From positions 1 to 14,607 of the forward strand of contig JACAEZ010000069.1 of the NCBI GenBank assembly GCA_013388565.1: a stretch of DNA of 14,607 nt. The letters are read 5' to 3'. Below the pieces are notes generated by a model. The model saw only the letters and a list, made by a program, of their open reading frames with translations. It was not told the origin of the DNA and made no database searches. Made by a program: the position numbers and the translations under genes. This document shows, piece by piece, positions 2,475 to 5,312 of the stretch; within the stretch, counting starts at the first letter, position 1, and each line of letters opens with the position of its first letter. This DNA is from Campylobacterales bacterium. GTDB taxonomy: Bacteria; Campylobacterota; Campylobacteria; Campylobacterales; JACAEZ01.

Positions 2475-2508
2475 TTAAGATTACTTTCCGTACGACAAGT
2501 AATCTTAA
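2475..2508. terminator. Inverted repeat between convergent genes, possible bidirectional terminator
   Basis: Perfect 12-bp arms TTAAGATTACTT (2475-2486) and AAGTAATCTTAA (2497-2508) enclose a 10-nt loop. The repeat lies between the stop of the SPOR-barrel gene on + and the stop of parB on -, and overlaps the parB stop codon. A clear T-run is missing on both sides, so it is a weak intrinsic terminator at best, though its position suits a shared 3' end. Confidence 0.5.
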
Positions 2509-3323
2509 CTGTTTCTTAATTCATTTAATATTTGTTCCAACTCTTTTATGACAGTTTCTCTATTCTCTAAATTATTTATATCTATTCTTATATTAAATAT
2601 ACCATTTTTTTTACTACATTTAAAACAATCTATTTGTTTATTTTCATATTGTTTTATGTAATTTAATGCCTCTATTTCGCTTAAATCAAAAATTTCAAAA
2701 AATAGTTTTGTTTTTAAATTATCTTCAATTTTCATGTTTGATAATTTTGATAACACATTTATCTTTTTATACTCTCTTTTTTTAGCTTCTGAAATTATCT
2801 CGTTTGGCAGTTTTAAAAGTGACAATATCTTAGATATATGGCTTATACTTTTACCAAGACTTAAAGCTATCTCTTCATGAGTTGTAAATATCCCATTTTC
2901 TATTAGTGAGTTGTAAGAGAGAGCTAATTCCAATGGGTGTAAATCTTTTCTTTGCAAATTTTCAACTATCACTATTGTACTTAACTCTTTTTTTGAGTAC
3001 TCTCTTATTATTGCTGGTATTGAAGAAAATCCAAGTTTTTTATATGCGGTATATCTCCTATGCCCTGCTACTATAATATATCTATTTGTGTTATCTGGAT
3101 TTTCTGCTACTATTATTGGTTGAGCCAATCCTTGTGATTTTATAGATTCTGCTAACTCTAATACCTCACTTTCATCTATTTCAAGTCGTGGTTGATAAGG
3201 ATTGTTATCTAAAATAGAAAGTTCTACCTCTCTTACCATCTCTTTGCTTATATTTAGTGCAACTCTGCTTTTACTACTCTCTTTAAACTCTTCAACTATC
3301 GTTTTATCAAATTTCTTTGTCAT
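2505..3323 (-). CDS. parB: ParB-family partition protein
   Basis: A 272-aa ParB/Spo0J-family protein, the DNA-binding CTPase clamp that loads at parS for replicon segregation. Residues about 33-120 form the ParB N-terminal nuclease-like domain: NNPYQPR at 40-46, then the CTP-binding segment AGHRRYTAYKKLG at 86-98. ENLQRKDLHPLE (121-132) is the second conserved CTP-contact motif. A helix-turn-helix follows (THEEIALSLGKSISHISKIL, 148-167). The C-terminal dimerisation part is lysine-rich and holds a lone CFKC pair (233-236), which could bind metal across a dimer. The start ATG has AAAGG six bases upstream. parB lies downstream of parA on the same strand, but a 239-nt gap separates them, so it may have its own promoter. 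The ParA type and the gap suggest a plasmid or integrated element rather than the chromosomal soj-spo0J pair. I saw no canonical parS. Confidence 0.88.
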   Translation of the reverse strand: MTKKFDKTIVEEFKESSKSRVALNISKEMVREVELSILDNNPYQPRLEIDESEVLELAESIKSQGLAQPIIVAENPDNTNRYIIVAGHRRYTAYKKLGFSSIPAIIREYSKKELSTIVIVENLQRKDLHPLELALSYNSLIENGIFTTHEEIALSLGKSISHISKILSLLKLPNEIISEAKKREYKKINVLSKLSNMKIEDNLKTKLFFEIFDLSEIEALNYIKQYENKQIDCFKCSKKNGIFNIRIDINNLENRETVIKELEQILNELRNS

Positions 3324-3342
3324 GATTTACCTTTTAAAAATT

Positions 3343-3353
3343 TATGATAAAAT
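3343..3353. promoter_or_regulatory. Overlapping divergent -10 elements: + strand spacer RNA and - strand parB
   Basis: On the + strand TATGATAAAAT gives two overlapping -10-like hexamers (TATGAT 3343-3348, TAAAAT 3348-3353) that would start a transcript near 3360, just before the structured spacer RNA. On the opposite strand the same stretch reads through TATTTTATCATAAAT, a plausible -10 region for parB. There is no good -35, which is normal for Campylobacterota sigma-70 promoters. Position and base composition are the only evidence. Confidence 0.35.
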
Positions 3354-3367
3354 ATCACTGTTAGAAC

Positions 3368-3412
3368 ATGTGCGACTATATTGTTGATGGAGCGGATAAA
3401 GGTTGGGAGTAA
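3368..3412 (+). CDS. Possible 14-aa leader peptide
   Basis: A short ORF reads MCDYIVDGADKGWE and stops at TAA 3410-3412. Its stop falls in the loop of the intrinsic terminator at 3402-3430, and its codons cover the 5' arm of the long hairpin. A ribosome on this ORF would disrupt the hairpin, which is the geometry of an attenuation leader. It has no Shine-Dalgarno and the ATG would be only about 8 nt from the inferred transcript start. An ORF this short can arise by chance. Confidence 0.2.
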   Translation: MCDYIVDGADKGWE

Positions 3413-3464
3413 TTAACCCAACTTTTTTTTGTCCGCTCTTAAAACAATATAGGAGGTAAGTCGC
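3372..3464 (+). ncRNA. Long structured leader RNA hairpin with SD in a bulge
   Basis: Four nested perfect stems: GCGAC 3372-3376 with GTCGC 3460-3464; TATATTGTT 3377-3385 with AACAATATA 3443-3451; GAGCGGA 3390-3396 with TCCGCTC 3432-3438; GTTGGG 3402-3407 with CCCAAC 3417-3422. The innermost stem is followed by eight Ts. The Shine-Dalgarno AGGAGG (3451-3456) sits in the bulge between the two outermost stems, so folding would limit ribosome access to the small ORF at 3466. Likely products are a short RNA of about 70 nt ending near 3430 and a read-through mRNA. Hiding the SD in a stable 5' fold is typical of type I toxin mRNAs. The stems are seen directly. The regulatory role is inferred. Confidence 0.6.
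3402..3430 (+). terminator. Intrinsic terminator inside the parA-parB spacer
   Basis: GTTGGG and CCCAAC form a perfect 6-bp stem with a 9-nt loop (AGTAATTAA), directly followed by T8 at 3423-3430. This is the best intrinsic terminator in the window and points to a + strand transcript that starts in the spacer. The opposite strand has no matching T-run. Confidence 0.75.
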
Positions 3465-3465
3465 G

Positions 3466-3522
3466 ATAAAAGTTATAACAATCTTTTTCTTAGTGGCTAT
3501 TGTAATAACTATAGCTTATTAA
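3466..3522 (+). CDS. Ibs-like hydrophobic small peptide with ATA start (candidate type I toxin)
   Basis: An 18-codon ORF reads (M)KVITIFFLVAIVITIAY and stops at TAA 3520-3522. It is preceded by a full Shine-Dalgarno AGGAGG (3451-3456) with a 9-nt spacer, but the codon at the expected start is ATA, not ATG, and no ATG/GTG/TTG lies nearby in frame. Length, a single hydrophobic stretch, the early lysine and the final Ala-Tyr recall the E. coli Ibs membrane toxins (18-19 aa, KxVII...SAY type), which are silenced by Sib antisense RNAs. The upstream fold that traps the SD and the terminator downstream also fit a type I toxin mRNA. ATA may be a rare weak start or a mutated ATG that disarms the gene. 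Homology over 18 hydrophobic residues is weak evidence alone. The context carries most of the weight. Confidence 0.45.
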   Translation: MKVITIFFLVAIVITIAY

Positions 3523-3565
3523 GCACGATTAAGAGGAGTTTATCTCCCCCTCCAATAAGTTTTTA
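3515..3565 (+). terminator. Terminator after the small hydrophobic ORF
   Basis: CTTATT (3515-3520) pairs with AATAAG (3554-3559), and an inner GAGGAG-type arm (about 3533-3538) pairs with the CTCCCCCTC segment. A T5 run follows at 3560-3564. It overlaps the stop of the ORF on its 5' side and the parA stop codon on its 3' side. The T-run lies only on the + strand side, so it ends the + strand RNA rather than parA. Confidence 0.5.
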
Positions 3566-4594
3566 ATCTTCTTTTATTATTCCATTTTTCACCAAATAAT
3601 CAAATGCAATTTTAAGTATCTCACCACCTATTTTAAACCCCATATCGCACTCTTGTTTGTACTCAAATATCGGTATATGAAATGCTTGACTTTCAGACAT
3701 TGTTAAAAGTTTTGGAATAAAATATAAATTATCAATTCCCGCTTTAAAAGATAACTCAACAAGTACATCTTTATAATGTTTATTCAAATTTGTATTCTCT
3801 ATCTTATTTATCACAAGTCCAAAAATATTAAAATCTTTAGAATCTTTCAAATCTATCATCTCATTTTTATAAAGCTCTAATTGCTCCAAAAGTGTTTTAA
3901 ATCCTCTTGCAGGAAACTCTTCAGGAATTGCTATCAATAAAATATCATCTGAACAATTTAGTGCCATTTGTGTATAAAGCCCAACAGTAGGAGGTGTGTC
4001 GATGATTATAAAATCATAAAACTCCTCTATCAATTTCAATGTCCTATTTAGTCTAGTTTCAGGTGTTGTTTTTGTTCTAAGTGACTCTATTTCTATACCC
4101 AAATCTATAGATGATGGCAAAATATCATACTTTACATTTTCAAACTCAACTGTTGAAATAGAGTTCAAAACAACATCTTTAGTAACAAGCTCTCTATTTT
4201 CTTTATGAAGCCTCATGATATCTGCTATTGTAGGTTTATTTGATAGTATATTTTGGGATAAAAAATTTTCAGATAGATTTGCTTGTGGGTCAAAATCTAC
4301 AATCAATATCCTAGCTTTTTTAGAGCTTATCAACGATAAACTACTAGCAAAATTAATAGCCAAAGAACTTTTTCCAACACCACCTTTGTTTTGAATAATA
4401 CTGATAACTTTACAATCATGAAACTCTATTTTTTGAGGGTTTATATGTAAAAAATCAGATGGAATAAAATGTTTTTTTAACTTTTTTGTTTGAAATGTAA
4501 GTGATACCATGGTTTTATTTTCTACTCGCTGAAGTATTGTAGCTCGTGAGATATTAAGTCTATTTGCAGCTACATTAGTATTTAACAATTCCAA
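3563..4594 (-). CDS. parA: ParA-family partition ATPase with N-terminal helix-turn-helix
   Basis: A 343-aa ParA/MinD-superfamily ATPase that would move ParB-bound DNA over the nucleoid. Residues 1-25 (NVAANRLNISRATILQRVEN) form a MerR/excisionase-like helix-turn-helix, as in plasmid type Ia ParA proteins that repress their own operon. The deviant Walker A box KGGVGKS is at 70-76, VDFDPQAN at 99-106 is Walker A', and IIIDTPP at 196-202 is Walker B. The length exceeds that of chromosomal Soj (about 260 aa) because of the extra N-terminal part. The start is TTG 4594-4592, supported by AGGAG six bases upstream. There is no nearby in-frame ATG. A TATAAT on the - strand at 4647-4642 is a good -10. 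parB follows after a 239-nt spacer that carries an opposing small gene. Confidence 0.9.
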   Translation of the reverse strand: MELLNTNVAANRLNISRATILQRVENKTMVSLTFQTKKLKKHFIPSDFLHINPQKIEFHDCKVISIIQNKGGVGKSSLAINFASSLSLISSKKARILIVDFDPQANLSENFLSQNILSNKPTIADIMRLHKENRELVTKDVVLNSISTVEFENVKYDILPSSIDLGIEIESLRTKTTPETRLNRTLKLIEEFYDFIIIDTPPTVGLYTQMALNCSDDILLIAIPEEFPARGFKTLLEQLELYKNEMIDLKDSKDFNIFGLVINKIENTNLNKHYKDVLVELSFKAGIDNLYFIPKLLTMSESQAFHIPIFEYKQECDMGFKIGGEILKIAFDYLVKNGIIKED

Positions 4595-4739: not shown

Positions 4740-4982
4740 ATGCAAATATGTTTGGATATAGATTCATCTTTACAAAAAAATTTTAAAGAGATTGGCATTG
4801 AACCAATAGAGGCTATTAAAGAGTTTTTCAACTACATTAAAAGTTTTAAAGAGTTACCATTTAAAACCCCAAATGATGAGACATTAAATGCAATACATGA
4901 AGCTGAAAATGGTATTAATATGCAACAAATTAGCTTTGATGAGCTAATCGCTGAAGCTAAAAATAAAATATCAAAACGATAA
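4740..4982 (+). CDS. dinJ: RelB/DinJ-type antitoxin
   Basis: An 80-aa protein that fits the DinJ/RelB antitoxins, which bind DNA as ribbon-helix-helix dimers and block a YafQ/RelE-type mRNA interferase. The N-terminus (MQICLDIDSSLQKNFKEIGI) suits a ribbon-helix-helix. The middle segment LPFKTPNDETLNAIHEAENG matches the DinJ pattern LPF-x2-PN-x2-T-x2-AI-x-E-x-E-x-G. The C-terminal helix (SFDELIAEAKNKI) would wrap the toxin. AAGGA lies 6-7 nt before the ATG. The frame overlaps the toxin gene. The last three residues (SKR) look like an extension: if base 4972 were G, the gene would end ...NKI with TGA inside a classic ATGA overlap. Confidence 0.8.
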   Translation: MQICLDIDSSLQKNFKEIGIEPIEAIKEFFNYIKSFKELPFKTPNDETLNAIHEAENGINMQQISFDELIAEAKNKISKR

Positions 4983-5248
4983 TTGAAAGGCATAAGCTAT
5001 TTGTAAAAGATTTTTTAAAAATCAAATTTACAGATGAACATTTTGCAAAATTTGTAAAATATATCTCTTTATTGAGTGATGGTAAAAATTTACCTATTGA
5101 GGCCAAAGAACATCCTCTTGTAGGTGAATTTTTAGGATATAGAGAGTTTCATATAGGCGGTGATTTATTGGTAATTTATAAGATTGAAGATAATTGTTTA
5201 AAACTTATTAGAATTGGTACACATTCGGCATTGTTTAAAAAGTTTTAA
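4970..5248 (+). CDS. yafQ: YafQ-type mRNA interferase toxin lacking a standard start codon
   Basis: The frame translates to 92 residues, the same length as E. coli YafQ, a ribosome-dependent endoribonuclease that cuts mRNA during translation. From ATC at 4970 the N-terminus would be (M)KTIIERHKLFVKDF, the usual start for this family. Active-site residues align by position with E. coli YafQ (His50, His63, Asp67, His87, Phe91): His48, His61, Asp65, His85 and Phe89, within KEHPLVGEFLGYREFHI and RIGTHSALF. Trp68 is replaced by Leu66. The fold is intact to the stop. However, no ATG, GTG or TTG exists near the N-terminus, as an in-frame TAA at 4964 closes the frame and the codons run AAT ATC AAA ACG ATA ATT. 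It is either translated weakly from ATC by coupling to the antitoxin, or silenced by one substitution. Confidence 0.75.
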   Translation: MKTIIERHKLFVKDFLKIKFTDEHFAKFVKYISLLSDGKNLPIEAKEHPLVGEFLGYREFHIGGDLLVIYKIEDNCLKLIRIGTHSALFKKF

Positions 5249-5276
5249 ATTTATTAGATACAAATATTGTTAAGAA

Positions 5277-5282
5277 TATAAT
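5277..5282 (+). promoter_or_regulatory. -10 element of metK promoter
   Basis: A perfect TATAAT 30 nt upstream of the metK ATG. The leader is too short for a riboswitch. AAAGGAC (5303-5309) is the ribosome binding site. Confidence 0.5.
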
Positions 5283-5312
5283 TCATTTCAAAAACATAAA
5301 AAAAGGACAAAT

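Follow-up and report, generated by a model that had tools for sequence, protein, structure and literature searches.

The window analysed here, a whole stretch of 14,607 nt, carries a parB gene and a parA gene on its minus strand, and both genes were confirmed by Pfam (Table 1). In the spacer between them lies a tiny frame which runs from ATA to TAA at 3466-3522 of the plus strand and translates as IKVITIFFLVAIVITIAY. The sequence-only reading had singled it out as an Ibs-like hydrophobic peptide of 18 residues behind a strong Shine-Dalgarno (SD) sequence, and regarded it either as a type I toxin of Campylobacterota or as a toxin frozen by a start-codon mutation. The AGGAGG is present upstream of the frame as it had been read, and the location in the parA-parB spacer holds. 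The coordinates 3466..3522 do cover the ORF, but the element itself is wider (about 210 nt, about 3343-3553 of the plus strand) and consists, in this order, of a promoter, a nested hairpin that contains a U-run terminator, the SD, a hydrophobic frame of 19 codons, a 3' hairpin and an anti-SD. Beside parA, at 4740-4982 (+), there is also a gene for a RelB-type antitoxin (PF04221), with no listed ORF of at least 60 residues in 4983-5312 as partner toxin.

Table 1 Features of the spacer element and its two flanking genes, in window coordinates
Feature	Position	Strand	Remarks
parB, flanking gene	2505..3323	-	PF02195, E 2.2e-26
-10 box TAAAAT of sense promoter	3348..3353	+	Extended: TGATAAAAT; sister copy has TATAAT at the same place
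5' arm	3360..3386	+	Partners in folds: 3459-3479 and the bases immediately 5' of the SD
Predicted short terminated leader RNA (S-RNA), about 71 nt	3360..3430	+	Inferred from promoter and terminator
Middle stem	3390..3438	+	3390-3397 / 3431-3438
Apical terminator hairpin and U8 run	3400..3430	+	U8 at 3423-3430
Apical loop AGTAATTAA	3408-3416	+	Holds self-complementary hexamer TAATTA
Shine-Dalgarno AGGAGG	3451..3456	+	In a bulge of the long hairpin
19-codon hydrophobic frame and TAA	3463..3522	+	Codon 1 (3463-3465) is GCG, no usual start codon
3' hairpin GAGGAG-TTTAT-CTCC	3533..3547	+	Hairpin-like repeat at the same place in relatives (by eye)
Anti-SD CCCCCTCC	3546..3553	+	Complementary to the SD
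parA, flanking gene	3563..4594	-	PF13614, E 3.7e-35

The nested hairpin spans 3360 to 3479, and its first position is close to where transcription would be expected to start. The partner of the 5' arm at 3459-3479 reaches from codon 1 to codon 6, and the pairing leaves the SD looped out. The 201-nt strand folded at -61.2 kcal/mol, against -39.4 kcal/mol for dinucleotide shuffles (z -4.9), and 0 of 200 shuffles were as stable. The SD piece and the 3' tail form a duplex of -12.0 kcal/mol, the perfect SD/anti-SD match being short in this copy (GGAGG/CCTCC). A scan of the window region with Rfam gave no match except five weak ones to unrelated families.

A second copy, 80% identical over 168 nt, was found on contig C38 of the same assembly (1.41 Mb, 238 contigs, 90% complete), where it is located between other ORFs and has the same promoter, hairpin, SD and frame as the window. 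No third copy was found in this genome, either by a pattern with up to three mismatches or by a covariance model (R1) of the 123-nt hairpin built from the two copies; there was one further weak pattern match on C201. Between the window and this sister, three pairs of the middle stem are altered on both sides and none is broken. The base stem, which extends into the coding region, is also altered, and its pairing is perfect in the sister and mismatched in the window. Codon 1 of the sister is GTG where the window reads GCG, and the sister frame is split, at L002 1332-1499, by a palindromic, MITE-like insert of 168 bp whose inverted ends measure 23 bp and whose flanks are AATA (TATT on the plus strand of L002).

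When R1 was searched in 398 genomes of the order, 31 genomes, the own genome included, matched at E <= 1; the best outside matches had E values of 1.5e-8 to 5.3e-7, and five other genomes lay between 1.5e-8 and 2.3e-5. Inspection by eye covered L011-L021, L023, L025-L028, L031-L033 and L035-L039, with L022, L024, L029, L030 and L034, as well as two hits lacking a locus, outside it. The layout of the window element was recognised in eight genomes beyond its own (L011-L017, L035; L016 and L014 with a short ORF), and the remaining inspected loci resemble coding sequence or plain terminators, L019 being ambiguous. That the hydrophobic frame is more than chance is borne out by the fold below the shuffles, by the sister and by the same layout in other genomes.

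A second covariance model (R2) was built from the central 62 positions of nine copies, with the ORF and the 3' end excluded. Among 228 genomes of the Sulfurimonas/Sulfuricurvum family, 53 matched at E <= 1e-5 and 74 at E <= 0.05, with between one and seven hits in each positive genome. In two other families, R2 matched 8 of 18 and 40 of 104 genomes at E <= 0.02. For the third family (104 genomes), 25 of 55 listed places were viewed: 20 are plain terminators without ORF, four have an ORF (19 residues in L106, L109 and L124, 14 in L014), and L107 is a copy of the element without ORF. Across the phylum, 14 of 397 genomes (all at least 90% complete, own genome included) matched at E <= 1e-4, and all 14 belong to the four families already found; the element family is therefore patchy. 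Scanning 84,980 species genomes with a pattern returned 15 stretches, namely seven from Sulfurimonas, five from Sulfuricurvum and three from other MAGs (one labelled Arcobacter, two of the order or phylum). Blastn against plasmids and pattern scans of viral contigs gave no match, and a blastn search of 60 genomes recovered nothing beyond the own genome and one 24-base match. Phage matches at E 0.8, which in the listed rows all concern one short query stretch, look like chance and were discarded.

For the comparisons below, 156 distinct places were tabulated (L176 is a duplicate of L175). The 228-genome search contributed its listed matches, less three near contig ends and 30 below 33 bits; from another search, one 24-bit second hit in L012 was left out. 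An SD-like run followed by an ORF of 7-40 codons is present in 116 places. The core set of 107 copies from 58 genomes leaves out nine of these: L010 (the insert-split sister), L157, whose C-terminus is altered, and seven whose ORFs are 7-14 residues long (L014, L016, L097, L182, L202, L208, L212). The counts given for the family are not independent, since the copies are related by descent. On this comparison of sequences, the window element is a member of a dispersed, multi-copy element family.

Neighbouring genes were picked at 16 relatives' copies (32 genes), and 20 of them were scanned with Pfam: nine had no family, two were tyrosine integrases, and the nine others included an acetyl-CoA synthetase, an AICARFT/IMPCHase bienzyme, a carbonic anhydrase and a helicase. 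The elements seem tied to no single mobile element. A functionless repeat or MITE is ruled out by arms which diverge yet stay complementary, and by a frame under coding selection. Some copies lie in tandem within about 410 nt of each other (L091, 397-468 and 708-776; L184, 301-362 and 646-707, with the ORF broken in the first). Directly upstream of the intact element of L017, at about 1621-1740 (read on the minus strand), there is a shorter unit that has TATAAT, a GC-rich hairpin and a U9 run but lacks an ORF; it may represent a stand-alone short RNA in tandem. L012 also contains, at 2112-2262, a sub-threshold Rfam match to HPnc0260 (46.6 vs 59 bits) which overlaps a tRNA gene on the other strand.

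Of the 116 ORFs, 103 are exactly 19 residues long, each beginning with ATG, and none has 18; a covariance search had been named as the way to ATG-bearing copies, and it led to them. Because R2 was built without the ORF and the 3' end, this recurrence of 19 residues is independent evidence. The register of the window frame was set by alignment with the sister and these 103 relatives. It places codon 1 at 3463-3465, so that the conserved Lys (codon 3, 95/103) and Leu (codon 10, 103/103) are in register, and it makes the ATA codon 2. The reported length of 18 residues was Ibs-sized, but the family register gives 19 codons. ATA as the functional start is not supported, because all 103 copies use ATG, and the sister GTG, at codon 1. 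The spacing that had been considered right does not fit either: ATA lies 9 nt from the AGGAGG, whereas 102 of 107 intact relatives start 4-6 nt from the G run. On register and spacing together, ATA was ruled out as a working start.

The typical sequence of the 19 residues is M-[DNE]-K-[LI]-x4-x-L-[ML]-C-I-F-A-P-[ML]-L-x, and peptides from the two smaller families often terminate in Ala-Tyr, Leu-Tyr or Leu-His. The mean GRAVY of the 107 core peptides is 1.76. The pN/pS ratio is 0.39 over codons 9-19 and 0.63 over codons 2-8, so the conservation of the frame that had been looked for in related loci was found, and by these ratios the frame is part of a peptide family under coding selection. The peptide itself would be a type I-like, putative membrane toxin.

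The leader upstream of the frame recurs in the relatives as well. On the sense strand, the -10 box is an exact TATAAT in 80 of the 107 relatives (9/107 when shuffled) and agrees in 5 of 6 bases in the other 27, and it is placed 34-41 nt before the centre in 100/107. Downstream of the ORF, the antisense strand of 105 of the 107 core copies was scored for the -10 hexamer alone, and exact TATAAT was no more frequent than in shuffles (5/105 vs 4/105). The internal U run counts exactly nine in 103/107 and seven in the other four; with its hairpin it is a predicted transcription terminator between leader and ORF. GGAG at the 5' side is answered by CTCC after the U run in 88/90 copies. Across the R2 alignment, changes on both sides of a pair occurred in 52 cells, against 17.4 in shuffles. 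Helix 2 pairs in 95.2% of cells and helix 1 (the middle stem) in 50.3% under the fixed register of R2, probably since the assigned register is unsuited to most copies.

Wobbles show which strand folds. Read on the sense strand, the upstream stem has 97 G-U against 7 A-C, the terminator stem 87 against 39 (a moderate bias) and the coding-side stem 40 against 34 (almost no strand bias). As G-U so outweighs A-C in the upstream stem, the sense RNA is, to judge by the sequences, the molecule that folds; the coding stem alone does not show this.

The start region is involved in two pairings. The SD and the 3' end covary by class, AGGGAG with CTCCC in 26/27 and GGGGG with CCCCC in 50/56; complementary runs of at least six occur in 93/107, vs 17% with shuffled 3' regions, and lineage-specific pairs extend to 8-10 nt in 19/107. 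The 5' arm, which is contiguous, forms pairs on either side of the SD, namely with the bases before it and with the early codons; in the relatives the SD and AUG are mostly looped out. For the 107 relatives the mean duplex of the 5' arm with its own start region is -23.5 kcal/mol, against -11.2 kcal/mol with those of paralogs (152 same-genome pairs), and the own partner is the best one for 77 of 78 copies in 29 genomes. In the window, the duplex is -15.7 kcal/mol with the own start region and -16.1 kcal/mol with that of the sister.

The apical loop is self-complementary in most copies. A palindromic hexamer is present in 89/107 loops and in 93 when closing bases are counted, leaving 14 without; in 200 sets of shuffled loops the average was 16 and the highest count 30. 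Its sequence varies (TAATTA/ATTAAT, TCATGA, TTCGAA, TGATCA, TTATAA), and TTCGAA, TGATCA and TTATAA are absent from the training set of the model. Among terminator hairpins of the fetched loci (stems of at least 6, loops of 6-10 nt), a palindromic hexamer occurs in 95/101 within the elements vs 1/63 elsewhere. More than one loop class exists in 17 of 29 multi-copy genomes, 'no palindrome' being counted as a class. All three intact copies of genome G409 (L161, L184, L200) are without the hexamer, a contrast for the idea of kissing loops. The HIV-1 dimerisation-initiation loop has 9 nt, made of 2 nt, a 6-nt palindrome and 1 nt. AGTAATTAA has the same geometry; the likeness is one of geometry only and implies no relationship. 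A self-complementary loop would serve contact between RNAs of the same strand and would have no special use for a sense-antisense pair.

With GCG in one and the insert in the other, neither own-genome copy is, as assembled, able to produce the peptide in the usual way. The earlier suggestion of a toxin frozen by a start mutation fits the window copy, which looks frozen by loss of its start at codon 1. Lacking a start codon, it may be a toxin-dead relic or at most a locus for the short RNA only; it retains the promoter, 5' arm, palindromic loop, terminator with U8, SD and frame. The GCG may also be an assembly error. Elsewhere, 12 of 24 non-core places have lost the ORF side by eye (L089, L136, L177, L181, L182, L183, L186, L194, L196, L198, L212, L215). 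An exact TATAAT remains in eight of them and a one-base difference in two, and all have a U run of 7-9, a feature favoured by the search model. L215 still forms a duplex with the start region of an intact paralog at cognate strength (-24.0 kcal/mol), a finding that is suggestive only.

The reading preferred here, to which we give somewhat less than an even chance, is that these are type I-like toxin loci with one strand and one promoter, where a short RNA (S) acts in trans as antitoxin on the opened long RNA (L). Most transcripts would halt at the internal terminator and yield S, of about 70 nt, and the few that read through would become L, which encodes the 19-residue membrane peptide. L would be locked from birth: the 5' arm would pair with the sequences on either side of the start region, and the SD would be bound by the 3' anti-SD. 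S shares the 5' arm and would hence be complementary to the start region of L in the same way. It could act on L molecules once they have been opened, e.g. by nuclease trimming, and the first contact may be a kissing interaction between the apical loops, which are self-complementary. The elaborate folded leader probably keeps a self-toxin off. The comparison of copies shows the anatomy, homology, covariation, coding selection, copy-specific complementarity and palindromic loops; transcription, the S/L ratio, toxicity and action in trans are what we infer from them. More tentatively, the whole may be a single-promoter, single-strand toxin-antitoxin system with the prematurely terminated leader as antitoxin, contact made by the kissing loop, re-locking of L by the shared 5' arm, and paralog-specific arms that insulate the copies from one another.

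Cis pairing alone would account for the complementarity of the 5' arm, which speaks against an antitoxin in trans. Close behind the trans reading stands a cis-only attenuated toxin mRNA, which we regard as rather unlikely: the terminator would lower transcription, the 5' arm and anti-SD would block translation in cis, the short RNA would be a by-product, and stress readthrough or RNA processing would free the peptide. All the pairing evidence is compatible with cis folding, and the AapA mRNAs of Helicobacter pylori are described as kept closed in cis by a 5'-3' interaction until their 3' end is trimmed (PMC6733600, in excerpt). Further points against the trans reading are the hexamer TAATTA, which is A/U only, the 14 loops without a hexamer (those of the three intact G409 copies among them), the near absence of a strand bias in the coding-side stem and the moderate one in the terminator stem, the 50.3% of the middle stem and, in the window, the short SD/anti-SD match and a 5' arm that pairs equally well with the start region of the sister. 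However, cis action does not predict the excess of self-complementary loops in the terminators of the elements. The 12 copies that keep promoter and terminator without the ORF side also count against it, although they may be decay products picked up by a search that needs the terminator. It would also be possible, at a clearly lower probability, that this is a classical locus of the Ibs-Sib kind, with an opposite-strand antisense RNA as antitoxin and the leader as an added layer. The 19-residue peptides fit it, a 3' hairpin and an anti-SD can also be read in the sequence of E. coli ibs, and the antisense strand of L013 scores 39.9 bits with SIB_RNA of Rfam (RF00113; E 8.8e-5 in 21 kb). This score is under the gathering score of 56, and L013 was the only one of 23 other loci scanned, the sister included, to give any match; the window has no gathering-level match, and 3300-3640 has none up to E 5. 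Antisense -10 boxes are not above shuffles, no conservation beyond the anti-SD is seen by eye, the wobbles of the upstream stem favour the sense strand, and R2 found no match, and thus no nested leader, at the ibsA, ibsB and ibsC loci of E. coli.

Least probable, and in our view improbable, is that there is no toxin at all and the structured leader controls a benign regulatory membrane micropeptide, as the housekeeping genes adjoining several copies might suggest. Type I toxin loci are known for multiple copies, silenced copies, translation locks and copy-specific pairing. With one to seven matches per matching genome, silenced copies, a double translation lock and copy-specific pairing, the present family fits such loci better than a benign peptide. 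The features of type I toxin loci used for comparison are in part those given in excerpts of PMC4147584 and PMC8309996.

Among known systems, Ibs-Sib shares several features with the trans-acting type I-like locus proposed here: a hydrophobic peptide of 19 residues (the length given for IbsC in an excerpt of PMC8309996) with Lys or Arg near the N-terminus and an Ala-Tyr end in some members, multiple copies, and a 3' hairpin with anti-SD, the last read in the E. coli sequence. The new family differs by its nested leader on the sense strand, its U9 terminator and its palindromic loop, as well as by the missing Sib match in the window and the antisense -10 box that is not enriched; the hairpin that precedes ibsA in E. 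coli belongs to the other strand, where it lies at the 3' end of SibA. What had been called an Ibs-like toxin of Campylobacterota stands as a peptide family under coding selection, but membership in Ibs-Sib proper is not supported by the sequences; a distant common origin is possible. AapA-IsoA of H. pylori, in the same phylum, shares the SD locked by a distant 3' anti-SD, which is reported for the full-length AapA mRNA in an excerpt of PMC6733600; the same excerpt gives 30 residues for the AapA3 peptide and an 80-nt antisense RNA as its antitoxin. In contrast, the present peptides have 19 residues, not about 30, and the antisense -10 is not enriched, although an IsoA-like antisense RNA may still be made. 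Type III systems (ToxIN, AbiQ) have the same order on one strand, i.e. an RNA, a Rho-independent terminator and the toxin gene, and at toxIN about 90% of transcripts stop at the terminator (PMC4147584, in excerpt). Unlike them, the leaders contain no tandem repeats by eye, a 19-residue peptide is far below RNase size, and the RNA has its complement in the start region of the toxin instead of being the ligand of a protein toxin.

No description of such a family was found in the open-access literature, judged by titles and the opening of abstracts, and searches naming the Sulfurimonas/Sulfuricurvum branch listed no type I toxin report for it; the 19-residue peptides of sulfur-oxidising Campylobacterota are apparently undescribed so far. 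The result adds a widespread, multi-copy peptide family to Sulfurimonas, Sulfuricurvum and relatives, and shows how such loci evade gene callers. Its copies die by loss of the start, insertion or 3' truncation, and the leader persists. From the RNA design one would expect a short RNA of the same strand, with a dimerising loop and with complementarity to the start site of the readthrough RNA from its own locus. If true, an antitoxin made of the terminated leader would combine the gene order of type III with the chemistry of type I and would thus represent a new class.
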